Position numbers and translations under genes: made by a program. Shown piece after piece: positions 50,568 through 57,138 of a DNA stretch of 64,000 nucleotides. A model generated the notes under the pieces. That model was not told where the DNA came from. It saw only the letters and a program-made list of their open reading frames with translations, and did no database searches. The DNA comes from an uncultured Pelagibacteraceae bacterium. GTDB lineage: Bacteria; Pseudomonadota; Alphaproteobacteria; Pelagibacterales; Pelagibacteraceae. Every line of letters begins with the position of its first letter. Positions within the stretch are counted from its first letter, which is position 1. The DNA lies in NCBI GenBank assembly GCA_902606835.1, contig CACLHW010000002.1, forward strand, positions 1 through 64,000. Direction: 5' to 3'.

Positions 50568-50936
50568 TTAATCCCAATCTAAGGCTCCTTTTTTCCACTC
50601 ATAAACAAAACCAACTGTTAAGACAGCTAAAAAAATCATCATAGACCAAAAACCTAAAGCTCCTATATTTCCTAATGATATAGCCCAAGGAAATAGGAAA
50701 GCTATTTCTAAATCAAAAATTATAAACAAAATTGCTACTAAATAAAATCTAACATCGAATTCCATTCTTGAATCACTAAATGCTTCAAAACCACATTCAT
50801 ATGCAGAAAGCTTTTCAGGATCTGGATTTTTTGGGGAAAATAAAAAATTTAATACTATAAAACCTACACTCATAACTAGAGCAACGAATATAAAAATTAT
50901 AATAGATAAGTAATCTTTTAAAAAATCTGTAAGCAT
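50568..50936 (-). CDS. nuoA: NADH-quinone oxidoreductase subunit A
   Basis: [43 protein letters not shown]; start at MLTDFLKDY, since the ORF track N-terminus to 51089 reads through antisense tRNA. Confidence 0.95.
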
Positions 50937-51027
50937 TAATTTGTTGATTATATAACTTTTTTTTTCACACTTGTAGCAGCGAGATTGCCACAAATAAATT
51001 ACTAACAACCTAAAAACAGGGGGAAAC

Positions 51028-51104
51028 TGGCGGGAGTGACGGGACTCGAACCCGCGACCTCCTGCGTGACAGGCAGGCGCTCTAACCAACTGAGCTACAC
51101 CCCC
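51028..51104 (-). tRNA. tRNA-Asp (anticodon GTC)
   Basis: Reverse complement GGGGGTGTAGCTCAGTTGGTTAGAGCGCCTGCCTGTCACGCAGGAGGTCGCGGGTTCGAGTCCCGTCACTCCCGCCA; cloverleaf, encoded CCA, G discriminator. Confidence 0.97.
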
Positions 51105-51108
51105 AAAA

Positions 51109-51184
51109 TGGTGGGCGCTGAAGGACTCGAACCTACGACCCTCTCGGTGTAAACGAGATGCTCTACCAACTGAGCTAAGCGCCC
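51109..51184 (-). tRNA. tRNA-Val (anticodon TAC)
   Basis: Reverse complement GGGCGCTTAGCTCAGTTGGTAGAGCATCTCGTTTACACCGAGAGGGTCGTAGGTTCGAGTCCTTCAGCGCCCACCA; cloverleaf with encoded CCA. Confidence 0.97.
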
Positions 51185-51229: not shown

Positions 51230-53776
51230 TTAATTCTCTAAATCTTTAATGCTTACAAATTTATGAGCTAAATCACTATTTTTTTTTTTAATTTCTTCAA
51301 AAAAATTCCATGCTAATACTAAAGCATAATCAGGTTTTGATTTTACTTTATCTTTTGAAACAATAGGAATTTTCATACCAGGTAAATATTTTCCATGTTT
51401 TAAACTATTATCTTCAACTATACATCCTATTTCATTTGATATTCCAAAAAAGTTTAAAGCCGTTGTTGCTTTAGCTGGTGAACCGTAACCAATTATTTTA
51501 TTTTTATTTTTTTTAAGTTCCATAATATTTTTTCTAATATTATCTCTAATTTTGTATACTTTTTTAGCAAAATCTTGGTAAGTTTTAAATTTTTTAATTC
51601 CAAATTTTTCTTCTTCATTAATTAATTCTTTAACACTTTTTTCAATTTTAACTTTTTTATCTCTTTTAATATAAACGCGTATTGATCCTCCGTGTGTATT
51701 TATTCTTTCTGCTCTATAAATTTTAGCTTCAAATTGATTAAAAAAATTAATTAAAGAAGTTAATGACCAATAATTATAATGTTCGTGATATATATTATCA
51801 AAAGTTAAATCTTTTAATGTGTTTAACAAGTATTGAACTTCTATAATTATTGTTCCATTTTTGCTTAATAGTTTAAACATACATTCTGCCATTTCTTTTA
51901 GTTTATCAGAATGAGCAAAAACGTTTGATGCTAAAATTAAATTAGAATTTTTTTTAATTTTACTCAAACTTTTTTTATTTAAAAAACCATTGAATGTTTT
52001 GATTTTATTTTTATTAGCTAATTTTGCCAAATTTTTAGCTGGTTCTATTCCAAGTATTTTTTTAAATCCTAAATCTTTGAACGGTTTTAAGGCTACGCCA
52101 TCATTACTTCCTACATCAATTATATAAGAGTTATTTTTATTCAATTTAAATTCTTTAATATATTTTTTGGCTGCATTTATAAAATGTTCTCTAAATGATT
52201 TAGATGTTGAAGATGTATATAAATAGTTTGAAAACATTTTTTTAGGATTAACGGAAACAGATAATTGACAATTATGACATTTGTTACAATAATTTACTTC
52301 TAAAGGATATAATTCACATTTCTCATCTTTTTTATTTAACAAATTATTTGCTAAAGGTTGATATCCTAAAGAAATTGCTCTTTGAAGTTTTGTATTTCCG
52401 CATGATCTACATTCAAACTTGTAGCAACTTAATAATAAATCTTTTTCTTCGTCTTCTACCAATACATGTCTTACAGTATGTGTTACACCATAATTTTCAT
52501 GCTCTCTTTCTCCTCTTACTAAATTTAAAAAAACTGTGTCTTTAGAAAAAACCATAGCATGCGCTGTATTTGGTTTAGTTACTATCAGTTGACCTTCATC
52601 AACTACATGTGTGACTTTTGGTGAATTTTTATTTAATAAGTCTTGATACACACTTATAAATTGACCTTTGGTTACAATACATTTTTGTTCTTGTATTGGA
52701 TGATAATGGTTAGCACGAGTTGTACCTTTTTTAGAATCTATTAGTCCTATTAAATTTACTGGTTCAGGTAATTCGTGATTACTAATTTTACCTCTTTTAT
52801 CTATAAATTCTTTCTCGCCATCTCTAACATGTTCTAAATCTCTTGTTATGTTTAGTTTAGACCATTTAAAAACCATTTCTTTAATACTCTCATCTAAATT
52901 GTACAAAAATTTAAAACCTGTTTTTAAAACCTTTTTATTTGATAAAGAAAATCCTAAATTGGGAACTTCATCATTAGTTTCTTTTAAAAGAATTTTTGGA
53001 TTATGTTTTTTACAAATTTCAGCAACTTCTTTTACTGTTACGGTATCTTTGGTTAAATTAAATATCTCTGAAGAAATATCGTTTCTTTCTTCCATATATT
53101 TAAAACATCTTGCTACATCTACAAGAGGTACTAGACTTTTTATTTGCCTGCCTCCCGCAAAAAGTTTTAAAGTTCCATTTTGAGAAGTGATTTTTGAAAA
53201 AAGATTCGGCATTATATCAATACGCGCTGTATCAGTAGAGTATCCATAAACTGAACCTAATCTCAAAATTATATAATTCTTTCCCGAATTTTTTAATTGT
53301 TTTTCATTATTTGCTTTTGAACTTGAATAGGAAAGTATTGGCTTTGTGTCTTCTCCTTCAAGGATATCATTTTTGATATTTTCTATTCCCTCATAAACCA
53401 CATGCGTTGAGGGGAAAATTATTTTACATTTATCACTTACAGCATCTATTATATTTTGCGTACCTTCTTCAGCTACCAGTCTGATTTTCTCATCCTTGTG
53501 ATCGCTACTCTCACTTTTAACTCTAGGTACATCGGTTATTCCAGCAAGATGATGAACAACATCTGCATCTTTACAATATTTGTTAACCAGATTTTTATTT
53601 AATATATCTACATTAACAAAATCGATATTCCAATTTCTTAATTGATTAACTCTTTCAGATATAAATCTATTATCTATTACTAAAATTTGATTATTCCAGC
53701 TTACTCCTGAATATATCTTACAAAGTTCTGTCCCTATATAGCCCAGGCCACCAGTTATAACGATCTTTTTACGCAT
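51230..53776 (-). CDS. Trifunctional fusion: NAD-dependent epimerase/dehydratase (aa ~1-305) + cupin/WxcM-like domain (aa ~312-440) + NovU/TylCIII-type C-methyltransferase with Zn-binding N-domain (aa ~453-848)
   Basis: GGLGYIGTELC Rossmann and YSSSK SDR motifs; NHYHPIQEQKCIVTKGQF cupin His motif; CRSCGNTKL...CNKCHNCQ zinc-binding domain, VGSNDGVALKPF SAM motif, GYGSPAKATTALNFFGI C-terminal methyltransferase domain. Confidence 0.85.
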   Translation of the reverse strand: MRKKIVITGGLGYIGTELCKIYSGVSWNNQILVIDNRFISERVNQLRNWNIDFVNVDILNKNLVNKYCKDADVVHHLAGITDVPRVKSESSDHKDEKIRLVAEEGTQNIIDAVSDKCKIIFPSTHVVYEGIENIKNDILEGEDTKPILSYSSSKANNEKQLKNSGKNYIILRLGSVYGYSTDTARIDIMPNLFSKITSQNGTLKLFAGGRQIKSLVPLVDVARCFKYMEERNDISSEIFNLTKDTVTVKEVAEICKKHNPKILLKETNDEVPNLGFSLSNKKVLKTGFKFLYNLDESIKEMVFKWSKLNITRDLEHVRDGEKEFIDKRGKISNHELPEPVNLIGLIDSKKGTTRANHYHPIQEQKCIVTKGQFISVYQDLLNKNSPKVTHVVDEGQLIVTKPNTAHAMVFSKDTVFLNLVRGEREHENYGVTHTVRHVLVEDEEKDLLLSCYKFECRSCGNTKLQRAISLGYQPLANNLLNKKDEKCELYPLEVNYCNKCHNCQLSVSVNPKKMFSNYLYTSSTSKSFREHFINAAKKYIKEFKLNKNNSYIIDVGSNDGVALKPFKDLGFKKILGIEPAKNLAKLANKNKIKTFNGFLNKKSLSKIKKNSNLILASNVFAHSDKLKEMAECMFKLLSKNGTIIIEVQYLLNTLKDLTFDNIYHEHYNYWSLTSLINFFNQFEAKIYRAERINTHGGSIRVYIKRDKKVKIEKSVKELINEEEKFGIKKFKTYQDFAKKVYKIRDNIRKNIMELKKNKNKIIGYGSPAKATTALNFFGISNEIGCIVEDNSLKHGKYLPGMKIPIVSKDKVKSKPDYALVLAWNFFEEIKKKNSDLAHKFVSIKDLEN

Positions 53777-53864
53777 AATTATTATTGTTCTTTATTAAAA
53801 TTAGATCTTTATGTTATTAGTATGGCAAAGGCTTATATTATATAAATTTAAATTTCAATTATAT

Positions 53865-54761
53865 ATGAAAATCTACGATTGTTTTCAGTTTTTTGATGAA
53901 GAGATGCTTTTAGATCTCAGATTAAACGTAATGAACAAATATATTAGCAAGTTTGTGATTACTGAAGCTACCTATATGCATAATGGAAAACCTAAAAAAC
54001 TTAATTTTGATATTAAAAAATATTCAAAATTTAAAGATAAAATTATTTATATTGTTGTTGACAAGCAGCCTCCCGATCTTTTCGAAATTTACGAAAGTGA
54101 TAAAAATAAAGATGATTTAAGAGGTCAAAAATTAGTTTTAAATGGTTATAAAAGAGATAATTATCAGAGACAGATGGCTGCAAGTTTTTTAAAAGATGCC
54201 GAGCCAGAAGATTGGATAATAATAAACGATATTGATGAAATACCTAACCTAGAAAATATTAACTTTAAAAATGCAGAAAATAAAATTGTTATTTTTAAAC
54301 AGCAGATGTTTTATTATAAATTTAATTTACTTTATCCGGAAATTAATTGGTATGGTTCTAAAGCCTGTAAAAAAAAGGAATTTATTTCACCTCAATGGTT
54401 AAGAGATTTAAAACATAAAAAATATCCTTTTTGGCGATTAGACACGCTCTTTTCAAAGAAAAAATATAATAATATTATCCATATAAATAGTGGTGGATGG
54501 CATTTTACAAATATTAAATCTGCTGAGGATATTGAAAAAAAACTGTTAAATTATACACATCATTACGAATTTGAGCAAAGTGGCTTAAATATAAAAGATT
54601 TAAAAAAAAAAATTACAGAGAAAAAAATTATATATGATCACGGAGTAGATCAAAAAAGACCTAAATGGAAATCTGAAAAAACTTTAACTAAGATAGATTT
54701 AAAAAATATGCCTACTTATCTGAGGGAAAATTATAAAAAATACTCTAATTGGTTAGAGTAG
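53865..54761 (+). CDS. GT17-like glycosyltransferase (beta-1,4-N-acetylglucosaminyltransferase family fold)
   Basis: MKIYDCFQFFDEEMLLDLRLNVMNKYISKFVITEATYMHNGKPKKLNF; NDIDEIPN DxD-like motif; INSGGWHFTNI; start re-set to the internal ATG at 53865. Confidence 0.82.
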   Translation: MKIYDCFQFFDEEMLLDLRLNVMNKYISKFVITEATYMHNGKPKKLNFDIKKYSKFKDKIIYIVVDKQPPDLFEIYESDKNKDDLRGQKLVLNGYKRDNYQRQMAASFLKDAEPEDWIIINDIDEIPNLENINFKNAENKIVIFKQQMFYYKFNLLYPEINWYGSKACKKKEFISPQWLRDLKHKKYPFWRLDTLFSKKKYNNIIHINSGGWHFTNIKSAEDIEKKLLNYTHHYEFEQSGLNIKDLKKKITEKKIIYDHGVDQKRPKWKSEKTLTKIDLKNMPTYLRENYKKYSNWLE

Positions 54762-57138
54762 ATGTTTTTTCATCACTTTTAGACTTTGTTAAATTTTCAA
54801 CCTCGATCCATTCAACTGGCTTTAAATCTTTGGTAAGTGCCATTTTTAAAACTTCATCAACAGTTTTAACAGTAACAATTTCTATATTATCTAAAATATT
54901 TTTTGGTATCTCTACCAAATCTTTTTTATTTTCTTCGGGAATTATAACTTTCGATATTCTTGCTCTATGAGCTGCCAAAAGTTTTTCTTTTAGACCGCCT
55001 ATTTGTAAGACATGTCCTCTTAATGTAACTTCCCCTGTCATAGCAATATTTTTATCAACGGGTATACCAGTTATTGATGATACTATTGATGTAACCATAG
55101 CTATACCAGCAGAAGGGCCATCTTTCGGCGTTGCTCCTTCAGGTACATGAATATGAAAATCCTTTTTTTCAAAAACTGGAGGTATGATTCCAAATTCTAA
55201 AGATTTTGATCTAACATATGATTTAGCAGCTTTAACTGATTCTTGCATAACATCTCCTAACTTACCTGTAATTTGCATTTTTCCTTTTCCAGGCATCATT
55301 GCAGACTCTATCTTTAAGATTTCTCCCCCATATTCAGTCCATGCAAGACCAGTAACAATACCAACTTTATTTTCAGATTCTATTTCACCATATTTAAATT
55401 TTTGCACTCCTAAAAAATCAGGTAAATTTTTTGTACTAATTTTTTTATTAGTATTCGCATCAACTAAAATATTTTTTACAGTTTTCCTTGCAAGTTTTGA
55501 AATTTCTCTTTCTAAATTTCTCACCCCTGATTCCTTGGTATAACTTCTTATAACATCTTTAAGGATTTCTTGATCTAAAGATAATTCTTTATCTTTAAGT
55601 CCATTTTCTTTAATTTGTTTTGGTATAAGATAATTAGTAGCTATATTAATTTTTTCATCTTCAGTATATCCAGGAATTCTAATTACTTCTAATCTATCTA
55701 ATAATGGTGGTAAAATATTAAGTGTGTTTGCTGTTGTTACAAACATTACGTCAGATAAATCATAGTCTACTTCTAAATAATGATCATTAAAGTTTACATT
55801 CTGCTCTGGATCTAAAGCTTCTAATAATGCTGAAGAAGGATCTCCTCTGTAGTCAGAACCAACTTTATCTATTTCATCAAGTAAAAAAAGAGGATTTTTT
55901 GTTCCAGCTTTTTTCATCTGCTGAATAATTTTACCTGGTAGAGATCCTATATAGGTTCTTCTATGACCTCTTATTTCTGCTTCATCTCTTATCCCACCCA
56001 AAGACATACGAACAAATTTTCTACCTGTAGATCTTGCAATGGATTTTCCTAAAGAAGTTTTTCCAACGCCAGGAGGGCCTACTAGACATAGTATTGCACC
56101 TTTAATCTTTCCTACTCTTTTTTGAACGGCTAAATACTCAAGTATTCTTTCTTTTACTTTATCTAAACCATAATGGTCTTCATCTAAAATTTTCTTAGCA
56201 TCATTAATATCAACGCTGTCCAATTTTTTTGATTTATTGTACCAAGGAAGCTCTATCATCCAATCGAGATAATTTCTAACAACAGTAGCCTCTGCGGACA
56301 TTGCGCTCATTGTTTTTAATTTTTTTAATTCAGAGAAACATTTTTTTGAAGCTTCCTTTGTCATTTTTGCTTTAATAATTGCTTTTTGAAGATTGGCTAT
56401 TTCATCTTTTCCATCCTCTATTTCTCCCAATTCTTTTTGTATAGCCTTCATTTGTTCATTTAAATAATATTCTCTTTGTGTTTTTTCCATTTGATTCTTT
56501 ACTCTTCCTCTTATTCTTTTCTCAACACCAATAACATTTATTTCGTTATTTATATGATCCATTAATTTTTCTAATCTTTCCTTTAAATCAAATGTCTCCA
56601 GCAATTTTTGCTTTTCTGGAATTGATATATTTAATTGACCCGAAATATGGTCTGCTATTGTAGTAGGATCCCTTTTTTCTTTTAAACTAGTTAATAATTC
56701 AGATGAAATTTTTTTATTTAAATTAGTTAATTTTTCTAATTTTCTTACCATTGCTATTGAAAAAGAAAGTAAATCAGCTTTAGGATCTATTTTATCCTTG
56801 ATCACCTCTGTCGAAGTTCTTAAAAATTCTTTTTCATTATTACATTCTAAAATTTTTACCCTATCTATACCTTCAACTAAAACTTTTACGGTTCCGTCGG
56901 GTAATTTTAATAGTTGTAATATTTTGCTTTCACATCCAAAAGAATAAAGATTTTCTTCGTTGGGGTCGTCTATTTCTGCATTTTTTTGAGTAACTAAAAT
57001 TATCTTTTTATTAGTTTTCATTACCTCGTTTAATGCTTTTATTGATTTTTCACGGCCAACAAACAAAGGTACTATCATTGCTGGAAAAACAACTATATCC
57101 CTTAAGGGCAAACATGGAAAAAACTCAGTTTTTGTCAT
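54745..57138 (-). CDS. lon: ATP-dependent Lon protease
   Basis: CLPLRDIVVFPAMIVPLFVGR, GPPGVGKTSLGKSIA, PEGATPKDGPSAGIAM (catalytic Ser). Confidence 0.97.
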   Translation of the reverse strand: MTKTEFFPCLPLRDIVVFPAMIVPLFVGREKSIKALNEVMKTNKKIILVTQKNAEIDDPNEENLYSFGCESKILQLLKLPDGTVKVLVEGIDRVKILECNNEKEFLRTSTEVIKDKIDPKADLLSFSIAMVRKLEKLTNLNKKISSELLTSLKEKRDPTTIADHISGQLNISIPEKQKLLETFDLKERLEKLMDHINNEINVIGVEKRIRGRVKNQMEKTQREYYLNEQMKAIQKELGEIEDGKDEIANLQKAIIKAKMTKEASKKCFSELKKLKTMSAMSAEATVVRNYLDWMIELPWYNKSKKLDSVDINDAKKILDEDHYGLDKVKERILEYLAVQKRVGKIKGAILCLVGPPGVGKTSLGKSIARSTGRKFVRMSLGGIRDEAEIRGHRRTYIGSLPGKIIQQMKKAGTKNPLFLLDEIDKVGSDYRGDPSSALLEALDPEQNVNFNDHYLEVDYDLSDVMFVTTANTLNILPPLLDRLEVIRIPGYTEDEKINIATNYLIPKQIKENGLKDKELSLDQEILKDVIRSYTKESGVRNLEREISKLARKTVKNILVDANTNKKISTKNLPDFLGVQKFKYGEIESENKVGIVTGLAWTEYGGEILKIESAMMPGKGKMQITGKLGDVMQESVKAAKSYVRSKSLEFGIIPPVFEKKDFHIHVPEGATPKDGPSAGIAMVTSIVSSITGIPVDKNIAMTGEVTLRGHVLQIGGLKEKLLAAHRARISKVIIPEENKKDLVEIPKNILDNIEIVTVKTVDEVLKMALTKDLKPVEWIEVENLTKSKSDEKTSTLTN

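Follow-up and report, generated by a model that had tools for sequence, protein, structure and literature searches.

Three enzyme modules appear to lie in one reading frame of a SAR11 genome, and the locus raises the question of whether they form a single functional protein and, if so, what that protein would make. The window (the whole 64,000-nucleotide stretch of DNA analysed here) comes from a Pelagibacteraceae (SAR11) genome, and the frame is flanked by a glycosyltransferase gene, by tRNA genes and by lon. The parts of the encoded protein are of known kinds; as far as checked, it is new that they are fused, that the fusion is conserved and that phages share it. The features to which the text refers are as follows.

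51230..53776, minus strand: SDR-cupin-C-methyltransferase fusion gene, 848 aa (open reading frame; orthologues open and full length in SAR11 and phages)
52847..53776, minus strand: SDR domain, residues 1-310 (Pfam Epimerase 6e-22; Cj1427 best solved relative)
52427..52846, minus strand: cupin domain, residues 311-450, with putative metal ligands H357, H359, E363 and H406 (homology to unfused cupins; Cap5F and FdtA/QdtA profile matches)
51233..52426, minus strand: predicted sugar 3-C-methyltransferase, residues 451-848 (phmmer match to D-mycarose 3-C-methyltransferase 4rv9, 6.5e-65)
52232..52411, minus strand: zinc-binding N-terminal part of the methyltransferase (PF08421), Cys 456, 459, 497 and 500, plus 503 (Pfam)
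53865..54761, plus strand: GT17 glycosyltransferase, divergent, from the MKIYDCFQ start; a longer ORF runs from 53811 (PF04724, 4e-12)
54745..57138, minus strand: lon, other boundary of the variable site (ORF list; loci of relatives)
51109..51184, minus strand: tRNA-Val(tac), insertion-site boundary (uninterrupted site in G045)
51028..51104, minus strand: tRNA-Asp(gtc), insertion-site boundary (uninterrupted site in G045)

The frame and its locus

From ATG to stop, the window translation gives 848 amino acids with no internal stop, which confirms the single frame at 51230-53776 described in an earlier note and places it on the minus strand, a point that the note had left unstated; every motif quoted from the protein is also present in the translation. 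Pfam recognises Epimerase, Methyltransf_13, Methyltransf_23 and Methyltransf_14 in the protein, all above gathering. The earlier note had named a sequencing frameshift at the join as a possible source of the fusion, and frameshifts do occur in two SAG copies (L078 and L080), but more than 60 other, independent sequences, bacterial and viral, have the frame open over its full length, which rules out a sequencing or assembly frameshift and leaves an artefact of any kind, annotation included, with a negligible probability. When the gene is compared with those of four relatives, dN/dS is 0.05-0.12 in the SDR, cupin and methyltransferase thirds alike (NG86; some pairs show partial saturation at synonymous sites), and these low values in every third indicate that all three parts of the fusion are maintained by purifying selection.

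The surroundings in the window comprise nuo genes, lon, clpX, clpP and tig, and the usual site of the fusion in the SAR11 loci read is between lon and tRNA-Val/tRNA-Asp/nuoA. This tRNA-adjacent position is a small site of variable content: lon, tRNA-Val, tRNA-Asp and nuoA stand without any insertion in one complete relative (G045), and other relatives carry unrelated genes there. In L115 and L116, the stretch from lon to nuoA has no insertion in one relative and holds many small unknown ORFs in another. The site was not found among the four hypervariable regions given for HTCC1062 (PMC2217521), a comparison made with the list of regions. The nuoA ORF as listed (50568-51089) runs through tRNA-Asp from a TTG, and its start is probably ~50 codons further in (the protein has 122 aa in relatives).

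The GT17 gene lies 88 bp from the fusion and is divergently transcribed. It adjoins the fusion in most genus-mates, in 13 viral loci (homologues within 3 kb, redundant contigs among them) and in the huge-phage genome LR756502. Its listed start at 53811 is probably too early, and the MKIYDCFQ start at 53865 agrees with homologues.

Three predicted enzyme domains

Pfam Epimerase covers residues 5-241 (E 6e-22), and the domain, an SDR of the extended type, contains the GGLGYIG NAD-binding loop (GxxGxxG), S123/T124, the Y150xxxK154 pair and an invariant D35 after beta-2. Its nearest solved relative by sequence is the GDP-heptose C4-dehydrogenase Cj1427 (PDB 6vo6; 8e-23, ~27% identity), which was also the best match in a fold search (E 1.2e-23, TM 0.85 of target), so that sequence, structure and the NAD-type Asp35 agree on a Cj1427-type domain. 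The invariant Asp35 suggests that the cofactor is NAD(H). Cj1427 is a C4-dehydrogenase with tightly bound NADH that acts before a C3/C5-epimerase and a C4-reductase (PMC10680097). The domain had earlier been described as an NAD-dependent epimerase/dehydratase, and of this description the SDR fold stands. The Asp-Glu pair of 4,6-dehydratases is absent, the window reads PSTHVV at that place (S123, H125 and V126 are invariant), and the score against the dTDP-glucose dehydratase model falls far short of its cut-off, which together rule out an NDP-sugar 4,6-dehydratase. CapF, considered as the closest relative of this half, was absent among the best matches listed for the SDR-cupin profile and model. 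Both the direction of the SDR reaction and an epimerase activity of the fusion are what we infer by homology.

On its own, the middle third matches Pfam Cupin_2 (residues 349-413) with an E of 0.005, below gathering, and PF14667 at only 0.019. Unfused cupin homologues with ~35% identity to the fused domain match PF14667 (the CapF C-terminal family; three of four above the cut-off) or Cupin_2 above gathering, and one of them matches FdtA (PF05523) at 7e-6, a family that the fused domain itself does not match. A profile matched Cap5F (PDB 3st7) at 3.6e-5 and FdtA/QdtA at 3e-4 to 1e-3; oxalate decarboxylases scored slightly higher over shorter stretches. AlphaFold modelled SDR and cupin poorly when the whole protein was given with a SAR11-only alignment, and the addition of phage sequences (47 sequences in all) produced a good model of the SDR-cupin part, with a mean pLDDT of 90 and several short strands in succession across the cupin. 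Because unfused homologues pass gathering and the SDR-cupin model shows these strands, the middle segment is, on homology and modelling, a real cupin despite its sub-threshold Pfam score. The homologues, the profile matches and the model rule out a mere linker, the other outcome against which the earlier note had asked for a check. The note's cupin assignment therefore survives, and the nearest kind appears to be the CapF-C/FdtA-type sugar-nucleotide cupins instead of WxcM in particular.

The cupin motif G(x5)HxH(x3)E with a later His is present, and both HxH histidines, the glutamate and the later histidine are invariant in 21 of 21 SAR11 copies; the putative ligand positions are kept in all fused copies, with E363 replaced by Q in four phage copies. 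The CapF cupin domain is a Zn-dependent epimerase domain (PMC5393024), and an epimerase is the role proposed below. FdtA and QdtA also match the profile, so the cupin could instead be a ketoisomerase, or it could be structural. Two cupin alleles occur in SAR11 (ISVYQDLLN...THVV and IIEVFQDI.NP...TQVV) and their distribution is partly uncoupled from that of the remaining protein; this points to internal recombination within the SAR11 fusion, or, as an alternative reading of the two alleles, specificity switching.

The C-terminal third contains Methyltransf_13 at residues 456-515 (4e-16), Methyltransf_23 at 534-682 (7e-14) and Methyltransf_14 at 694-837 (3e-45), so PF08421, PF13489 and PF08484 follow one another in the TylC3/TcaB9 order, each above gathering. 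The phmmer alignment with 4rv9 extends over the third and includes the FAH and IYHEH motifs of TylC3, and this active-site region is invariant in SAR11 and phage copies. The 6.5e-65 match and the aligned catalytic motifs bear out the earlier proposal of a NovU/TylCIII-like C-methyltransferase, and this third is predicted to be a complete sugar 3-C-methyltransferase of the TylC3/TcaB9 type. The earlier reading of three modules holds up: by sequence, the fusion consists of three complete enzyme domains with invariant catalytic residues, held together by selection in SAR11 and phages.

Distribution in bacteria and phages

The fusion was found in 51 of 297 sampled Pelagibacterales genomes, nearly always full length and at 61-77% identity, and all carriers belong to one family (4 of 11 genera). 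More than 20 of 100 relatives searched also carry it at full length without stops (66-89% identity). Among 399 phylum (Pseudomonadota) and 385 class genomes sampled, no full fusion was present except in the genome of the window, and a plasmid search returned none; a contig scan beyond these samples used patterns suited to close relatives, which carriers at 50-60% identity in other phyla could escape. The earlier note had asked whether the architecture is common and already characterised: it is common in one SAR11 family and in phages, it is absent from ~780 other sampled genomes, and no description of it was found in the literature.

The same enzymes occur unfused elsewhere. For example, in two Pseudomonadota genomes (G212 and G148) three neighbouring genes encode an SDR, a RANHYH cupin and a C-methyltransferase separately, cupin-methyltransferase pairs are found elsewhere in SAR11 itself, and a homologous free-standing cupin gene beside a C-methyltransferase is named 'dTDP-4-dehydrorhamnose 3,5-epimerase family' by NCBI. 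On Brachyspira plasmids (H11-H15), a cupin (named RfbC family) lies next to a C-methyltransferase, with 32% identity to residues 347-834. In another SAR11 genome (G017, L150:7311-11236), a likely CDP-branched-sugar operon consists of rfbG, the gene for CDP-glucose 4,6-dehydratase, a free C-methyltransferase paralogue, an rfbF-like cytidylyltransferase just under its curated cut-off and then an SDR. Of 16 family members with the fusion, 13 have rfbG, as against 4 of 19 without it (Fisher p 6e-4, confounded by genus structure and incomplete genomes). The genome of the window has rfbG, away from the fusion locus, an rfbF-like gene and rmlB.

Phages carry the fusion as well. An IMG/VR scan with the single protein recovered full fusions on contigs of up to 166 kb, and a scan with a host-plus-phage alignment recovered 54 loci with 40 full-length ORFs, 34 of them distinct and ~48-58% identical; SDR, cupin and methyltransferase catalytic positions are kept in all 34. 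Annotated phage records yielded one full fusion: it follows a GT17 gene immediately in LR756502, a huge phage of 642 kb. T4-type Gp23 is encoded in LR756502 and contig G503 and is above cut-off in 12 of 35 further contigs, terminase is encoded in two fusion-bearing contigs, and in one phage group UvsX, a DnaB-like helicase, ribonucleotide reductase, SSB and dUTPase flank the fusion. By gene content, many of these contigs are true phages. Most phage copies lie amid other glycan genes; in one T4-like contig group the fusion lies amid genes of nucleotide metabolism such as nrdA, thioredoxin and dUTPase, with no other sugar gene nearby. No model in PHROGs v4 spans the fusion (the SDR part is matched well and the methyltransferase only weakly), and a BFVD fold search listed no close match (best 12-22% identity).

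Several variant forms were observed. Two to four zinc cysteines of the methyltransferase are lost in L158, L163, L164, L168, L183, L186 and L191, with catalytic residues kept; a 1124-aa phage protein (L189:3001-6366) joins an FkbM methyltransferase domain to the three-domain fusion; and four phage loci (L196, L199, L200 and L204) have a two-domain SDR-cupin with a separate methyltransferase nearby, very divergent in three. A 588-aa protein that contains an NAD synthase (L173:6308-8074) lies near one phage fusion, and related ORFs are found in 11 viral loci.

Methyltransferase and SDR-cupin trees, each with a weak backbone, place the SAR11 copies in one clade (100/100), with the phage copies more diverse. 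Fused methyltransferases group together against free ones (100/100) with two exceptions that lie inside, a SAR11 copy broken by a frameshift and the free methyltransferase that accompanies one two-domain phage form, and the two-domain SDR-cupin forms do not form one clade. A single origin of the fusion is the simplest reading of these trees. The greater diversity of the phage copies favours one transfer from phage to SAR11 without proving it, and most likely the fused gene entered SAR11 once and has been retained at the lon/tRNA-Val site. The pattern suggests a surface-sugar tool that moves between phages and bacteria. A standalone SDR in G029 (63% identical) was considered as an ancestor and set aside; it lies among fused copies in the SDR tree and is read as a remnant. 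The SDR tree with free SDRs has very long branches and was not used for rooting.

Predicted function and known systems

The fusion is probably a trifunctional nucleotide-sugar tailoring enzyme that yields a 3-C-methyl-branched sugar for a surface glycan, a setting already proposed in the earlier note that holds up here. We infer that all three domains act around one 4-keto NDP-hexose (or heptose), and the substrate and the order of steps are likewise read from sequence. The SDR would form the 4-ketone or take it away by redox at C4, the metal-binding cupin would epimerise C3 and/or C5 beside the ketone, and the TylC3-type domain would methylate C3. The adjacent GT17 is the best candidate for the glycosyltransferase that uses the branched sugar. 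In phages, the enzyme may be expressed during infection and would then either change the surface of the host, for example as a block to superinfection, or decorate components of the phage.

How the 4-keto sugar would arise can be read in more than one way. It is a serious possibility, a little short of an even chance, that the fusion forms the end of a classical deoxysugar pathway, in which a host 4,6-dehydratase acting on CDP-glucose or dTDP-glucose supplies the 4-keto-6-deoxy sugar and 3-C-methylation, C5 (or C3) epimerisation and 4-ketoreduction take place on the fusion. The enzyme classes and their order agree with the C-methylation, epimerisation and 4-ketoreduction proposed as last steps of virenose synthesis (PMC3539893), and the rfbG, rfbF-like and rmlB genes of the window genome, with the frequency of rfbG among fusion-positive genomes, are in keeping with such a supply. 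However, known 4-ketoreductases are not close relatives of the SDR, Asp35 points to NAD(H), and a dehydratase gene is absent at the fusion locus.

A self-contained synthase seems unlikely, if worth considering: here a Cj1427-like SDR with bound NAD would oxidise C4 of a common NDP-sugar, the cupin and methyltransferase would act on the ketone and the same SDR would re-reduce it, so that a separate 4,6-dehydratase or reductase would not be needed. The tightly bound NADH of Cj1427, the N-to-C order of the domains (which fits oxidation, epimerisation and methylation) and the T4-like contig group without a nearby sugar gene are consistent with this scheme, whereas the identity to Cj1427 is low, Cj1427 itself requires alpha-ketoglutarate for NADH recycling (PMC10680097) and most phage copies have glycan genes around them. 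Extended to evolution, the scheme becomes a long shot: a phage-borne three-step synthase would convert a host NDP-sugar to a 3-C-methyl-branched sugar, recycling the hydride in its own SDR, to remodel host glycan in infection, and SAR11 would have captured it once from a phage for use with GT17 at the lon/tRNA-Val site. More improbable still is that the domains serve different sugars and that fusion merely couples their expression; the phage SDR-cupin forms beside separate methyltransferases imply that the methyltransferase is replaceable, but the three-domain form is intact across SAR11 and very diverse phages, and the separate genes are neighbours in other bacteria.

The preferred reading, a trifunctional tailoring enzyme, would provide a specific candidate route to a branched surface sugar in SAR11, whose members are among the most abundant marine bacteria. 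With the gene common to SAR11 and many phages, including one of 642 kb, an old question, how surface glycans are traded and reshaped between phages and SAR11, becomes testable with one expressible protein. In addition, the fusion offers a three-step sugar-branching biocatalyst and a marker gene outside PHROGs v4.

Each part of the fusion resembles a known system and departs from it. Like TylC3 and TcaB9 (PDB 4rv9 and 3ndi), the methyltransferase third has a zinc domain, a SAM domain with SNDG, IYHEH and a C-terminal domain, but those enzymes are free-standing, whereas in the fusion the methyltransferase follows an SDR and a cupin, and one phage subgroup is without the zinc cysteines. CapF (Cap5F) likewise has an SDR and then a cupin in one chain, with a sequence-related cupin of the metal-type HxH kind; it lacks a methyltransferase, its substrate is a UDP-amino sugar, and the fusion SDR is nearer Cj1427 than CapF. 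Cj1427, the closest solved structure to the SDR in sequence and fold, is free-standing and ~27% identical to it. The gene trios of G212 and G148 encode the three enzyme classes of the fusion, RANHYH cupin included, but as separate genes, and the G212 SDR is only ~23% identical to that of the fusion. Finally, the LPS/O-antigen modification genes of pelagimyophages are also phage-carried glycan genes, believed to change the surface of the host (PMC7029224); that paper nowhere uses the words epimerase, cupin or methyltransferase, and a trifunctional enzyme of the kind shared by SAR11 and phages is not described in it.
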